This document shows positions 46,010 to 49,353 of a stretch of DNA of 64,000 nt, piece by piece. The DNA lies in contig JALHQT010000001.1 in the NCBI GenBank assembly GCA_022841825.1, forward strand, positions 806,001 to 870,000. The letters are read 5' to 3'. The translations under genes were made by a program, and so were the position numbers. Each line of letters begins with the position of its first letter. Position 1 is the first letter of the stretch. The notes below the pieces were generated by a model. That model was not told where the DNA came from. It made no database searches and saw nothing but the letters and a program-made list of their open reading frames with translations. This DNA is from Anaerolineae bacterium (GTDB lineage: Bacteria; Chloroflexota; Anaerolineae; Aggregatilineales; Phototrophicaceae).

Positions 46010-47362
46010 TTAGCCGCCGATGGTCGCGTTGTAATCGGCAAGTGCCGCGTCCGCCGCCGCCTTTGCCGCCTCCAGCGACGCTGTAACATCCTGCCCACCA
46101 TCGACGATCGATTGCAGCGCCTGAATCAACGCTCCACGCACCTCCGGCGCAGGACCGATGACCGCGCCCGCATTCGCGACGTTTCCACCCTGTGCCTGGA
46201 GCTGATCGATGGCGATGCGATACGCCGGATTTTCATCGAACCATCCGCTTTCGGACAGCGCATCGAGAGAAGTCTGCCGCACAGGGAAATAGCCGGTACC
46301 TTGATGCCACTGCATATCGTAATCAGTGGTCGTCAGAAAGAAGATGAAATCGATGGCAGCGCGCGTCTCCTCGTCCGTGTGCCCCGCTGTCACCCACAGA
46401 CTGCCGCCCCCGATGGTACCGCCGTTGGTCGCATCTGCGTTTGGCGCTGGCAGCGGCGCGATGCCAAGGTCGATACCAAAAACCCCGGAGAAGCGCTGAA
46501 ACAATCCAATGCCAGCGGTGCTGTTAATGGTCATCGCCGTATTTTTACCCAGGAACGCCTGACCTTCACCGTTGTAGTCATCAGGTGTGCCGCTGTAAAC
46601 GTAGTAGCCTGCGTCGCCAAGCTGCTTGAACCAGTTTACGACCGTCAGCATCTCCGGGCTTGTAAACAGCGCCTCGCTGGCGCGCGCAGCACGCCCGTTG
46701 TCATTGTTGACGAACAAGCCGCCCTGCATCGCCACCCACTGCTCCGCAAACCAGGTAGACATCGGCCAGTTGATGCACCCGCCCGTCGGGCGCGTGTCTT
46801 CCGGCAGCGACATGATTGCTTCGCAGGCGGCGAGGATTTCGTCAAACGTCGTGGGCGGTGCATCCGGATCAAGACCTGCCGCCTCGAACATGCCGCGATT
46901 GTAGTACAGCAGCGGATTGCTGGCGTTCCAGGGCATCGACCATAGCGCGCCTTCGATGCGGTAGAAGTTCAGAAGCTGCGGGATAACATCCTCGAGACTC
47001 GCTAACTGCTCCGCGCTGGCGATACCTTCGACAGGCACAAACAACTGCGAGTCATAGGCGAGTTGTGTCAGCCCTTCTTCGACCAGCACGATCTCTGGGG
47101 CACTGCCTTGCTGCGCGCTGAGAAGCGCCGTATTGAACAGCTCGGTGTAGTCGGTGCTGGGCGACGATACCGTCACCTGTACATCGGTACGCTCTGCCAT
47201 GAAAGCATCCGCGACCGCCTGGATAAGCTCCCCGCGATCATCATTTTCGCCGCCAAAGATATGGACGAATTCGATCTGAATGGCTCGATCCTGCGCGCTT
47301 AAAGGCATGACGCCAACGATCAGTGCCAACAGCAGGCAAAACAACAGTGAACTTCGTTTCAC
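46010..47362 (-). CDS. Extracellular solute-binding protein, family 1
   Basis: 450 aa, exported (signal peptide MKRSSLLFCLLLALIVGVMP, cleavage near SAQ). It shows the family-1 pattern of sugar-binding proteins: IEFVHIFGGENDDRGELIQ, LWSMPWNASNPLLYYNRGMF, PPTTFDEILAACEAI and GTIGGGSLWVTAGHTDEETRAA. The overall pattern resembles UgpB-like proteins. The GTG start is preceded by GGAGG; a TTG at 47383 extends the frame but adds no signal. It is the first gene of the importer operon, with its own promoter candidate. No ATPase gene is present, so a shared MsmK/UgpC-type ATPase is expected elsewhere. Confidence 0.92.
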   Translation of the reverse strand: MKRSSLLFCLLLALIVGVMPLSAQDRAIQIEFVHIFGGENDDRGELIQAVADAFMAERTDVQVTVSSPSTDYTELFNTALLSAQQGSAPEIVLVEEGLTQLAYDSQLFVPVEGIASAEQLASLEDVIPQLLNFYRIEGALWSMPWNASNPLLYYNRGMFEAAGLDPDAPPTTFDEILAACEAIMSLPEDTRPTGGCINWPMSTWFAEQWVAMQGGLFVNNDNGRAARASEALFTSPEMLTVVNWFKQLGDAGYYVYSGTPDDYNGEGQAFLGKNTAMTINSTAGIGLFQRFSGVFGIDLGIAPLPAPNADATNGGTIGGGSLWVTAGHTDEETRAAIDFIFFLTTTDYDMQWHQGTGYFPVRQTSLDALSESGWFDENPAYRIAIDQLQAQGGNVANAGAVIGPAPEVRGALIQALQSIVDGGQDVTASLEAAKAAADAALADYNATIGG

Positions 47363-47409
47363 AGCACACCCCTCCGCTTCCAATCATGAGGCGGAAAGCA
47401 TAACGCGAA

Positions 47410-47438
47410 ATGTTAAAGTGTGCGCATAGGAATGTTAA
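47410..47438 (-). promoter_or_regulatory. Sigma-70-type promoter of the sugar ABC operon
   Basis: On the minus strand TTAACA (5/6), a 17-nt spacer and TAACAT (4/6), about 48 nt before the GTG of the binding protein. Confidence 0.5.
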
Positions 47439-47492
47439 GAGCGTTACACGCAAGGGTCCTCCAAAGGGCGGATGTCCTGCTGAAAAGCGCCG

Positions 47493-47501
47493 TGCTATAC
47501 T
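47493..47501 (+). promoter_or_regulatory. Extended -10 element upstream of the ABC-F leader
   Basis: TGCTATACT, an extended -10 with a 5/6 hexamer, about 65 nt before the candidate leader peptide and 230 nt before the ABC-F gene. The -35 region is weak. The gap 47363-47730 between the sugar importer and the ABC-F gene holds this element, the divergent promoter, the leader peptide and a long-range stem. Confidence 0.45.
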
Positions 47502-47567
47502 TTGCGTGTTGGGACTGCATCACCCGATGCCCTCCCAGCTTCTACCGCTCCTAGCGAAAGGTCGCAC

Positions 47568-47594
47568 ATGCGTCAGGACAGCAGCACCCGTTAA
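47568..47594 (+). CDS. Candidate leader peptide of the ABC-F gene
   Basis: Eight codons (MRQDSSTR) and a TAA stop, with GAAAGG placed 6 nt before the ATG, a good ribosome binding site in an otherwise non-coding leader. The stop codon directly abuts the left arm of the inverted repeat that precedes the ABC-F gene. Antibiotic-resistance ABC-F genes are known to be controlled by ribosome stalling on short upstream ORFs, so this arrangement fits that mechanism. No conservation data are available here. Confidence 0.45.
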   Translation: MRQDSSTR

Positions 47595-47690
47595 CCCGAT
47601 ACGGAATGCCTCCGCTGCTGCTCGATTCGTGTGCCGTGCGCGTATCACTCTGCGCCTGCCAGTTGCATAAGCATGTTATTCCGTAACGGG
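47595..47690 (+). promoter_or_regulatory. Long-range stem in the ABC-F leader (attenuator candidate)
   Basis: Left arm CCCGATACGGAA (47595-47606) pairs with right arm TTCCGTAACGGG (47679-47690) with one mismatch in 12. The stem starts right after the leader peptide stop and closes 40 nt before the ABC-F ATG. The right arm is followed by a pyrimidine-rich tract (TCTTCGCTTCGTTC). A ribosome paused on the leader would cover the left arm. Confidence 0.4.
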
Positions 47691-47730
47691 TCTTCGCTTC
47701 GTTCAAGCAGACGCCGAAAGGAACATCCCT

Positions 47731-49353
47731 ATGCAAACGCTCTCTGTAACAGACCTGACAAAATATTACGGCGCGCAGCGCGTCCTGAACGACATCCGTT
47801 TTCACCTCAACGAAGGCGAACGACTTGGCATCGTCGGCGCGAATGGCGTCGGCAAATCGACCCTGATCAGGATTATCGCGGGCGAAGTCACCGCCGATCA
47901 GGGTCGAGTCAGCATCCGCAAAGATGCTGACCGGGGTTACCTGGCACAGGTGCAAACGCAGGATCAGCGGGCGACACTGCGCGACTGGCTCTACCAGGCG
48001 CTCACCCACATCCACGACCTTGAGCGGCAGATGCGCGCATTGGAAGTCGCTATGGCAGCAGGCGACGCTGGCGCACTCGACCAATACGGCGATGTTGCCC
48101 ATCGCTACGAGCTGCTCGGCGGCTACGACCTGGACGCGCGGATCGACATCGTCTTTTCCGGACTCGGCATCGCCCATCTGGATCGTGAGCGAAGGGTCAG
48201 CAGCTTCAGCGGCGGCGAGACGACACGCATCGCGCTCGCATTGCTCCTGCTGCGGTCGCCCGACCTGCTGCTGCTGGACGAGCCAACCAATCACCTGGAT
48301 GCCGCCGCCTTGGAATGGTTGGAAGGCTACCTGCGACGCCATCATGGGAGCGCCCTGGTCGTTTCGCACGACCGCGAGTTTCTCAACCGCACCGTCAATG
48401 CCATCCTGGAGATCGACGAGCACACGCGCAGCGCGCGCCGCTTCCCCGGCGATTATGACGCGTACCGCGCTCAGAAGGCAGTAGAACGTCAGCGATGGGA
48501 GCAGGACTACGCCGCGCAGCAGGATGAGATCAAGACGCTTCAAATCGAAATCAAGCAGGGTGCGCGTCGCAACGACAATTATCGCGCGCATACCGATGGC
48601 GATAAGCTCCTGCGCAACGCCAAGATCGCCAACCACGAATCGACCGTCTCCAAGCGCGTGCGTGATGCAGAAACACGACTGGCGCATTTGCTGCGCGACC
48701 CGATCCCCAAGCCTCCCAAGCCGCTCCAGTTCGACGCCGATTTTGACCCGGCGCTGATGGCGAGCCACTTCGCCTTGCGCGCGCAGGGCATCACGAAGTC
48801 CTACAGCGGGCGCACGATCCTGAGCGACGTGAGCTTCGATATTCCGAACAGCGCGCGGATCGCGATCACTGGAGAAAATGGCGTGGGCAAATCGACGCTG
48901 CTGCGCATCCTGGCGGGCGTCGAAGCGGCGGACGCCGGGAGCGTGCAGCGCGCGCCGACGGTACAAATCGGCTACATGCCACAAGATGAACCGCCGCAGC
49001 GGGGTACGGTCTACGACGTGTTCGCCAGCACCGCCAGTGGAGCGCCGAAAGAGATCATGAATCAGTTGATCTGGACGGGCTTGTTCCGCTTCGACGAGGT
49101 TGAGACGGAGGTGATGAATCTGAGCGCCGGGCAGCGCCGCAAGCTGACGCTGGCGCGGCTGATGGCGAGCCGCGCTAACCTGCTGCTGCTCGACGAGCCG
49201 ACCAATCATCTAAGCCCCGACGTGCTGGAGGAGCTTGAAGACGCGCTGCGCAGCTTCCCCGGCACGATCATCGCCATCTCGCATGATCGCCGATTCCTGG
49301 AGGGTTTTAGGGGCGAGCAATGGGAAGTGCGCGATAATCAGATTTGGAGGTAA
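47731..49353 (+). CDS. ABC-F family ATPase (ribosome-associated)
   Basis: 540 aa, two ABC domains, no membrane part. Walker A motifs GANGVGKST and GENGVGKST; signatures FSGGETTRIAL and LSAGQRRKLTLARL (the second departs from LSGGQ); both Walker B motifs read LLLLDEPTNHL. The domains are joined by the charged helical P-site linker typical of ABC-F (AAQQDEIKTLQIEIKQGARR and following). ABC-F proteins act at the ribosomal E site in translation control or antibiotic protection. Here the linker is of ordinary length, so the class (Uup/YdiF-like or resistance type) is open. AAGGA precedes the ATG. Confidence 0.93.
   Translation: MQTLSVTDLTKYYGAQRVLNDIRFHLNEGERLGIVGANGVGKSTLIRIIAGEVTADQGRVSIRKDADRGYLAQVQTQDQRATLRDWLYQALTHIHDLERQMRALEVAMAAGDAGALDQYGDVAHRYELLGGYDLDARIDIVFSGLGIAHLDRERRVSSFSGGETTRIALALLLLRSPDLLLLDEPTNHLDAAALEWLEGYLRRHHGSALVVSHDREFLNRTVNAILEIDEHTRSARRFPGDYDAYRAQKAVERQRWEQDYAAQQDEIKTLQIEIKQGARRNDNYRAHTDGDKLLRNAKIANHESTVSKRVRDAETRLAHLLRDPIPKPPKPLQFDADFDPALMASHFALRAQGITKSYSGRTILSDVSFDIPNSARIAITGENGVGKSTLLRILAGVEAADAGSVQRAPTVQIGYMPQDEPPQRGTVYDVFASTASGAPKEIMNQLIWTGLFRFDEVETEVMNLSAGQRRKLTLARLMASRANLLLLDEPTNHLSPDVLEELEDALRSFPGTIIAISHDRRFLEGFRGEQWEVRDNQIWR

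Follow-up and report, generated by a model that had tools for sequence, protein, structure and literature searches.

A predicted ribosome-responsive leader RNA ahead of an ABC-F gene in an Anaerolineae bacterium recurs in its order

We analyzed the leader of an ABC-F gene within a window of 64,000 nucleotides from an Anaerolineae bacterium (contig JALHQT010000001.1). This leader, at positions 47508–47731 of the window, probably acts as a ribosome-mediated attenuator that would keep the ABC-F gene silent unless ribosomes stall as translation begins. The RNA switch itself is probably real, because the same switch recurs in related bacteria. The computation shows a conserved upstream open reading frame (uORF), pairs that covary among relatives, and three folded states of the RNA. 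A preliminary description of this DNA had suggested induction by translation stress through attenuation, in a phylum where this is hardly described. Attenuation is supported by uORF conservation, covarying arms and a held-out covariance model, but the switch is predicted only for a ribosome stalled at about codons 1–4; and the case is not an isolated one, as the leader appears to be one of a leader-RNA group in this order.

The elements of the leader are listed in Table 1. Both the eight-codon ORF with its well-spaced GAAAGG and the extended −10 upstream of it, as previously described, are present in the sequence, though the −35 is poor. Transcription would be expected to start near 47508, and the uORF is probably translated. 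The distance from the −10 to the uORF is 66 nt, compared with a median of 74 across 51 leaders. The intergenic space between the divergent genes measures about 347 nt, not the 370 nt given before. It is common to the ABC-F leader and a neighbor on the − strand (46010–47383), which encodes a UgpB-like substrate-binding protein that scores below that model's cut-off. The ABC-F product matches NF000355 (NCBIfam, ribosomal protection-like ABC-F) with 438.1 bits, passing the cut-off of 380, and may function in ribosome protection. Its best subfamily likeness is to the TlrC/CarA/OleB/SrmB group, below cut-off, as it is for all the named resistance subfamily models shown. The closest full-length homologs belong to its own genus, family and order and share about 47–54% identity (a few 40–43%); the nearest of them is 54% identical, and one fragment at a contig edge 57%. 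Further homologs are present in the class and phylum, and a protein scan of genome contigs with a single ABC-F query returned five distant loci.

Table 1. Predicted elements of the ABC-F leader (positions in the window)
Feature	Position	Strand	Remark
Extended −10 of predicted promoter, TGCTATACT	47493–47501	+	good −35 absent
P0 hairpin: lower stem GTTGGGA/TCCCAGC, 2x2 CU/CC internal loop, upper stem GCATC/GATGC	47508–47539	+	z −4.1
Shine-Dalgarno of uORF, GAAAGG	47556–47561	+	6-nt spacer to ATG
Leader uORF MRQDSSTR (segment 1)	47568–47594	+	ATG 47568, TAA 47592–47594
Segment 2a, left arm of long-range stem (anti-sequester strand)	47594–47607	+	sits in loop of uORF hairpin
Segment 2b, predicted OFF-state partner of uORF region 47564–47585	47614–47634	+	from folding and relatives' covariation
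Start-site hairpin, left arm	47663–47677	+	pairs with 47722–47736
Segment 3, right arm of long-range stem	47678–47691	+	with 2a (ON) or inside start-site hairpin (OFF)
Segment 4, ABC-F Shine-Dalgarno region (GAAAGGAAC) and start codon	47714–47737	+	predicted hidden in OFF state
ABC-F gene, 540 aa	47731–49353	+	NF000355 match

The inverted repeat that follows the uORF had been reported as 12 nt with 11 paired; it is present but longer, at 14 nt with 13 paired (segments 2a and 3). Its first base is the final A of the uORF stop codon, and it ends 39 nt, rather than 40 nt, before the ABC-F ATG. Segment 3 has a second potential partner: ACCCGTTA (47586–47593, the last uORF codons and stop) matches 47684–47691 at 8 of 8 positions. 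The left arm of the start-site hairpin and its partner, which contains the ABC-F start codon, are 87% paired. Folding of the RNA 47505–47760 beats all of 200 dinucleotide shuffles (z −3.0), and for the 28 nt that follow the uORF stop, 3 of 100 shuffles reach their duplex with the downstream region. The uORF:2b duplex of the window does not stand out: 46 of 100 shuffles reach it.

We propose the following mechanism for the window leader. In the OFF state, the uORF region would pair with 2b, and the ABC-F Shine-Dalgarno region and AUG would be folded into a hairpin with 47663–47677. A ribosome on uORF codons 1 to about 4 would break the uORF hairpin and free 2a, which would then pair with segment 3. 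This pairing and the start-site hairpin exclude each other, and the ABC-F gene would be translated. A ribosome that reaches the uORF stop codon would cover 2a, so normal uORF translation should leave the switch off. In this model, the control point in the window would be translation and not transcription. Drugs that stall ribosomes at initiation or shortly afterwards (pleuromutilin, lincosamide and streptogramin A types) are the likely inducers.

We folded the window leader with a ribosome footprint of +15 placed at codons 1–8. The long-range stem has a probability of 0.00 in the free RNA, 0.83–0.88 with the ribosome on codons 1–4, 0.54 at codon 5, and 0.00–0.07 at codons 6–8; comparison with and without a ribosome, which had been suggested as a check, therefore shows a stem that forms at codons 1–4 and not at 6–8. 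The start-site hairpin follows the opposite course (0.73 free, 0.02–0.06 at codons 1–4, 0.21 at codon 5, and 0.64–0.73 at codons 6–8). The unpaired fraction of the start site is 0.27 free, about 0.51 at codons 1–4, and 0.27–0.30 at codons 6–8; only about half of it opens, even with a ribosome on an early codon. The switching border moves by one or two codons under other footprints; at +11, codon 1 does not switch. The change at the start site was matched by 0 of 150 shuffled linkers. Computed folding and covariation point to mutually exclusive structures set by ribosome position, and folding predicts that the ABC-F Shine-Dalgarno and start are sequestered in the OFF state. In this folding, the stem ahead of the ABC-F gene depends on the ribosome and is the ON (anti-sequester) arm, not the repressing structure. 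We rejected this stem as the element that hides the start codon, as folding puts the start site in another hairpin. The leader of one further locus, L118, folds with the same translational layout as the window.

We defined an automatic rule for uORFs (an ATG ORF of 4–12 codons with an SD-like word at position −285 to −55), to which a promoter rule could be added (TTGACA-like/TAnnnT, with the −10 starting 61–92 nt upstream). As background, 400 kb of the organism's own genome supplied 283 genes, counting ORFs with 150 codons or more. An SD-bearing uORF was found in 37 of 43 same-order orthologs, including one (L119) that we rejected by eye, versus 27 of the 283 background genes; a uORF together with a sigma-70-like promoter was found in 34 of 43 versus 0 of 283, and strict SD words alone gave 25 of 43 (one, L060, misplaced) versus 3 of 283. 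The uORF of the window satisfies the SD rules but, with its poor −35, not the promoter rule. Judged by eye, 40 of the 43 orthologs carry such a leader; the exceptions are L119 and L123, neither with an acceptable leader, and L026, which apparently carries a start-stop pair alone. Under an initial, looser SD rule 55 of 101 targets passed, as did 19 of 28 control paralogs, and the rule was dropped for stricter ones; several of these paralogs turned out to carry the same kind of leader.

The uORF peptides vary widely among relatives (MRRGLYNR, MTTDSSL, MRSALTR, MEIASNNR and MSMR, for example) and are not conserved as such, though many end in R, S or K. The early-codon range of switching would explain this variability. 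We curated 48 uORFs by eye (37 from same-order orthologs, 8 from paralogs and 3 from MKLR orthologs). Loci L017, L021, L116 and L124 (no start in contig), L070 (118 nt upstream), and L122 (a duplicate of L026) were dropped. A DNA search with the leader in 15 genomes of the genus, its own included, found no close copy elsewhere (best E 0.008, short pieces), so the leader codons are not traceable in close relatives. The idea would have been undermined by a uORF and arms that were not conserved in relatives keeping the ABC-F gene; it survived on the ortholog enrichment with promoter, the covarying arms and the held-out model match.

Leaders of the same kind, with a uORF ending in R* or S* and mostly with a terminator, precede ABC-F paralogs (L139–L144, L029, L030 and L197), and the leader thus precedes several ABC-F groups. 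The compared paralogs (L139–L144, L029 and L030) are below 40% identity. Possible start-stop pairs follow SD-like words in L026, L095 and L100 (ATG TAA, TTG TAA and CTG TAA), and these could be peptide-free reporters of initiation arrest. Three leaders are compact (L005, L009 and L019), with just 66–69 nt separating the uORF from the gene; two of them, L005 and L009, have a T-run preceded by a weak hairpin (−9.6 kcal/mol) that starts within the uORF. Outside the class but within the phylum, L086, L087 and L101 have MKLR* uORFs after GGAGG, which we take to resemble the +x+ macrolide arrest motif. A homolog on a Streptomyces plasmid (L207) adjoins genes annotated as a CatB-related acetyltransferase and a macrolide glycosyltransferase.

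The preliminary description had proposed an alignment of relatives to look for compensatory changes in the stem, and both alternative pairings, the stem's counterpart 2a:3 and also 1:2b, do covary among relatives. No consensus structure emerged from MAFFT and RNAalifold for 30 leaders (energy 0.0), and we therefore used a coherent subset of 18 leaders with a hand-drawn structure; the alignment and structure for the 1:2b pair count are hence hand-chosen. With the window excluded, 24 cells of 1:2b changed on both sides versus 12.8 in shuffles (0 of 500), and 81% of cells were paired versus at most 52% when the arms were slid by 1–3 columns. Two of the five measures in this count lacked a clear excess over shuffles: pairs with two-sided change showed none (5 versus 4.9) and further pair types only a slight one (19 versus 16.1, 25 of 500). 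In duplex tests on the 48 leaders, 24 were in the best 5% of shuffles for 2a:3 (mean z −1.8) and 18 for 1:2b (mean z −1.2), with the other 24 and 30, respectively, outside it. When partners were swapped among leaders, the total energy was never as low as for the cognate arms in 20000 permutations (0/20000; n=36 for 2a:3 and n=48 for 1:2b). The window's 2a ranks 1 of 36 for its own partner, and its 1:2b ranks 8 of 48. The compact leaders L005, L009 and L019 were excluded from the duplex tests.

We built a held-out covariance model (A3, R2) of the uORF segment from 17 relatives, with the window excluded. It matches the window at 47551–47648 with 41.5 bits (E 6.8e-10 for a search within the window), and in the organism's own 5.9 Mb genome this leader is the sole match at E<=1 (E 6.3e-8). 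A wider search covered 56 sources, including 400 kb of the own genome and 36 non-training ABC-F loci (35 with an accepted leader). At E<=1 there were 12 matches, 10 of them on leaders (5 of these at E<0.05), and 25 of the 35 leaders outside the training set were missed. A model that includes the window (R1), run with stricter filters on 154 genomes, gave 19 matches at E<=1e-4: 18 training leaders and one new, G147:C40 (L197), which lies ahead of another ABC-F gene; its uORF reads MCTRIDIR, and it also has a T-run with a hairpin resembling a terminator. Six weaker matches had E 0.001–0.005. Rfam 15 gave no match at gathering scores in the window or in six related loci, and none at E<=5 within 47384–47760. 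By sequence comparison, then, the window leader is a putative member of a leader-RNA group of this order, common to ABC-F paralogs.

In relatives, 2b is often followed by an intrinsic terminator, a G+C hairpin and then a T-run, commonly TTTTTGAT. A terminator scan was positive in 50 of 101 target leaders versus 97 of 505 shuffled, and 34 of the 48 curated leaders have a terminator of −14 kcal/mol or better after the uORF. Segment 3 is the 5' arm of this terminator, and 2a:3 would therefore be an antiterminator in relatives. We folded cut transcripts ending before the 3' arm of the terminator, a test that was devised after the equilibrium folding result was known and for which 36 of the 48 leaders were usable. 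The number of 2a:3 pairs averaged 1.8 free, 12.0 with a ribosome on codon 1, 7.2 on the last codon, and 4.6 with a shuffled linker (n=36); a gain of 3 or more pairs at codon 1 was seen in 30 leaders and a renewed loss of 3 or more at the last codon in only 16, and for 16 no more than 1 of 20 shuffled linkers did as well. When whole leaders were folded to equilibrium, the terminator probability fell from a mean of 0.93 free to 0.79 at codon 1 (n=34), with a fall of more than 0.3 in 6 of 34; one listed terminator (L003) never forms. A switch that is decided while the RNA is being transcribed would leave the terminator in place at equilibrium; its persistence also counts against a simple switch. 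We also considered whether loss of the terminator is generally paired with sequestration of the RBS. This was unsupported, as the RBS opened by at least 0.15 at codon 1 in 3 of 14 leaders without a terminator (L001, L118 and L087) versus 7 of 34 with one.

These terminators bear on how the window copy works. Transcription attenuation is the common form, because a strong intrinsic terminator separates uORF and gene in 34 of 48 curated leaders, and the window copy might likewise work mainly in this way, through a weak or Rho-dependent terminator, with the RBS hairpin as a side effect. We consider this the less probable reading, though one with some weight: a scan of the window leader for a premature intrinsic terminator (hairpin and T-run) found none, and its RBS hairpin responds to ribosome position as expected, to a degree that no shuffled linker reaches. 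Alternatively, the uORF may encode a specific arrest peptide for macrolide-type sensing rather than report initiation arrest, as the MKLR* leaders of three more distant orthologs and the R, S or K endings of many others might suggest. We find this unlikely, since the sequences differ widely (MRQDSSTR, MTTDSSL, MSMR, MRRGLYNR), folding of the window predicts switching from early codons only, and the shared letters GACAGCAGC fall within the uORF:2b pairing.

Inverted repeats between divergent genes are often operators, and the −35 of the window is weak; the uORF and repeats might therefore be due to chance or have another role, such as a DNA operator. This is very improbable, given that pairing is kept among relatives while the sequence changes, and given the uORF enrichment and held-out homology. 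We therefore favor a ribosome-mediated attenuator that senses arrest at initiation.

The proposed mechanism is that of published ABC-F attenuators of the VmlR/CplR kind, and the leader is in no Rfam family. In ermC-type attenuators, too, a drug-stalled ribosome on the leader frees a hidden RBS, as proposed here; they differ in having a macrolide-specific arrest peptide and in controlling a methyltransferase. According to the excerpts of the papers available to us, from which the comparisons below are drawn, published ABC-F attenuators respond to ribosomes arrested on the start codon or close to it (PMC9226507, PMC12421871, PMC10201436). Bacillus subtilis vmlR has the uORF MIN, other short uORF sequences also work, and induction is by lincomycin, which stalls initiating ribosomes (PMC9226507). 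The early-codon range predicted for the window fits initiation-arresting drugs, as for vmlR and the Streptomyces ARE5 genes. Like this leader group, vmlR has a uORF in a 5' stem-loop, an alternative antiterminator, a terminator, and an SD-sequestering hairpin (PMC9226507). Unlike in the excerpted account of vmlR, the antiterminator strand here sits in the loop of the uORF hairpin, most leaders start with a 5'-terminal hairpin bearing a C.C mismatch, and the window copy is without an intrinsic terminator. No sequence relation to the vmlR leader was found in a comparison confined to Rfam.

For translational control, the closest system in these excerpts appears to be Clostridioides difficile cplR, which is described as translational attenuation (PMC10201436). 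It has the uORF MRI (14 of 48 curated uORFs here also begin MR) and, like the window, a uORF-sequestering hairpin and a second hairpin that hides the SD of the gene, followed in cplR by poly-U, which the window hairpin lacks (PMC10201436). Premature termination is reported as not essential for cplR induction (PMC10201436), and we therefore do not take a terminator as required of every member of the vmlR/cplR kind. Streptomyces tiaA and are5sc are, as excerpted, also ABC-F genes with short uORFs and are induced by start-codon arrest, but their leaders are actinomycete, unlike those of this order (PMC12421871); the held-out model gave no match (E<=5) in five actinomycete ABC-F loci, a set without tiaA and are5sc. 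Among the literature matches listed for Chloroflexi/Chloroflexota, none joined the phylum with a leader peptide, attenuator, uORF or stalling, and the three that pair Chloroflexota with ABC-F concern other subjects, judging from titles and abstract openings.

The leaders also share a hairpin, P0, at their 5' end. We tested 44 leaders, excluding 7 of 51 that lacked a promoter 60–82 nt upstream or were of another leader type. Cognate P0 arms beat permuted ones in 20,000 of 20,000 trials (z −12.6). Folding z averages −2.1, with 35 of 44 leaders at −1 or lower. A 1x1 C.C mismatch is present in 31 of 44 leaders, at one fixed place in 29. Among mononucleotide shuffles the count is 50 of 880, and among other promoter-like sites 1 of 22 (0 at that place); the P0 of the window has its 2x2 CU/CC loop where relatives have the mismatch. 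It is possible, and we suggest it tentatively, that the leaders form an undescribed RNA family in which P0, with its start at about +1 and its fixed C.C, is a second module that acts on RNA polymerase or binds a factor. If so, P0 could be, for example, a pause or processivity element, and the leader would integrate two signals before the ABC-F protein is made.

Ribosome sensing before ABC-F genes is reported, in the excerpts cited, from Bacillus, Clostridioides and Streptomyces (PMC9226507, PMC10201436, PMC12421871). Our analysis suggests that in an environmental bacterial order this gene is usually arranged in this way. One leader design, which also precedes several ABC-F paralogs there, would serve transcriptional outputs and possibly translational ones. 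The covariance model offers a means to find such genes.
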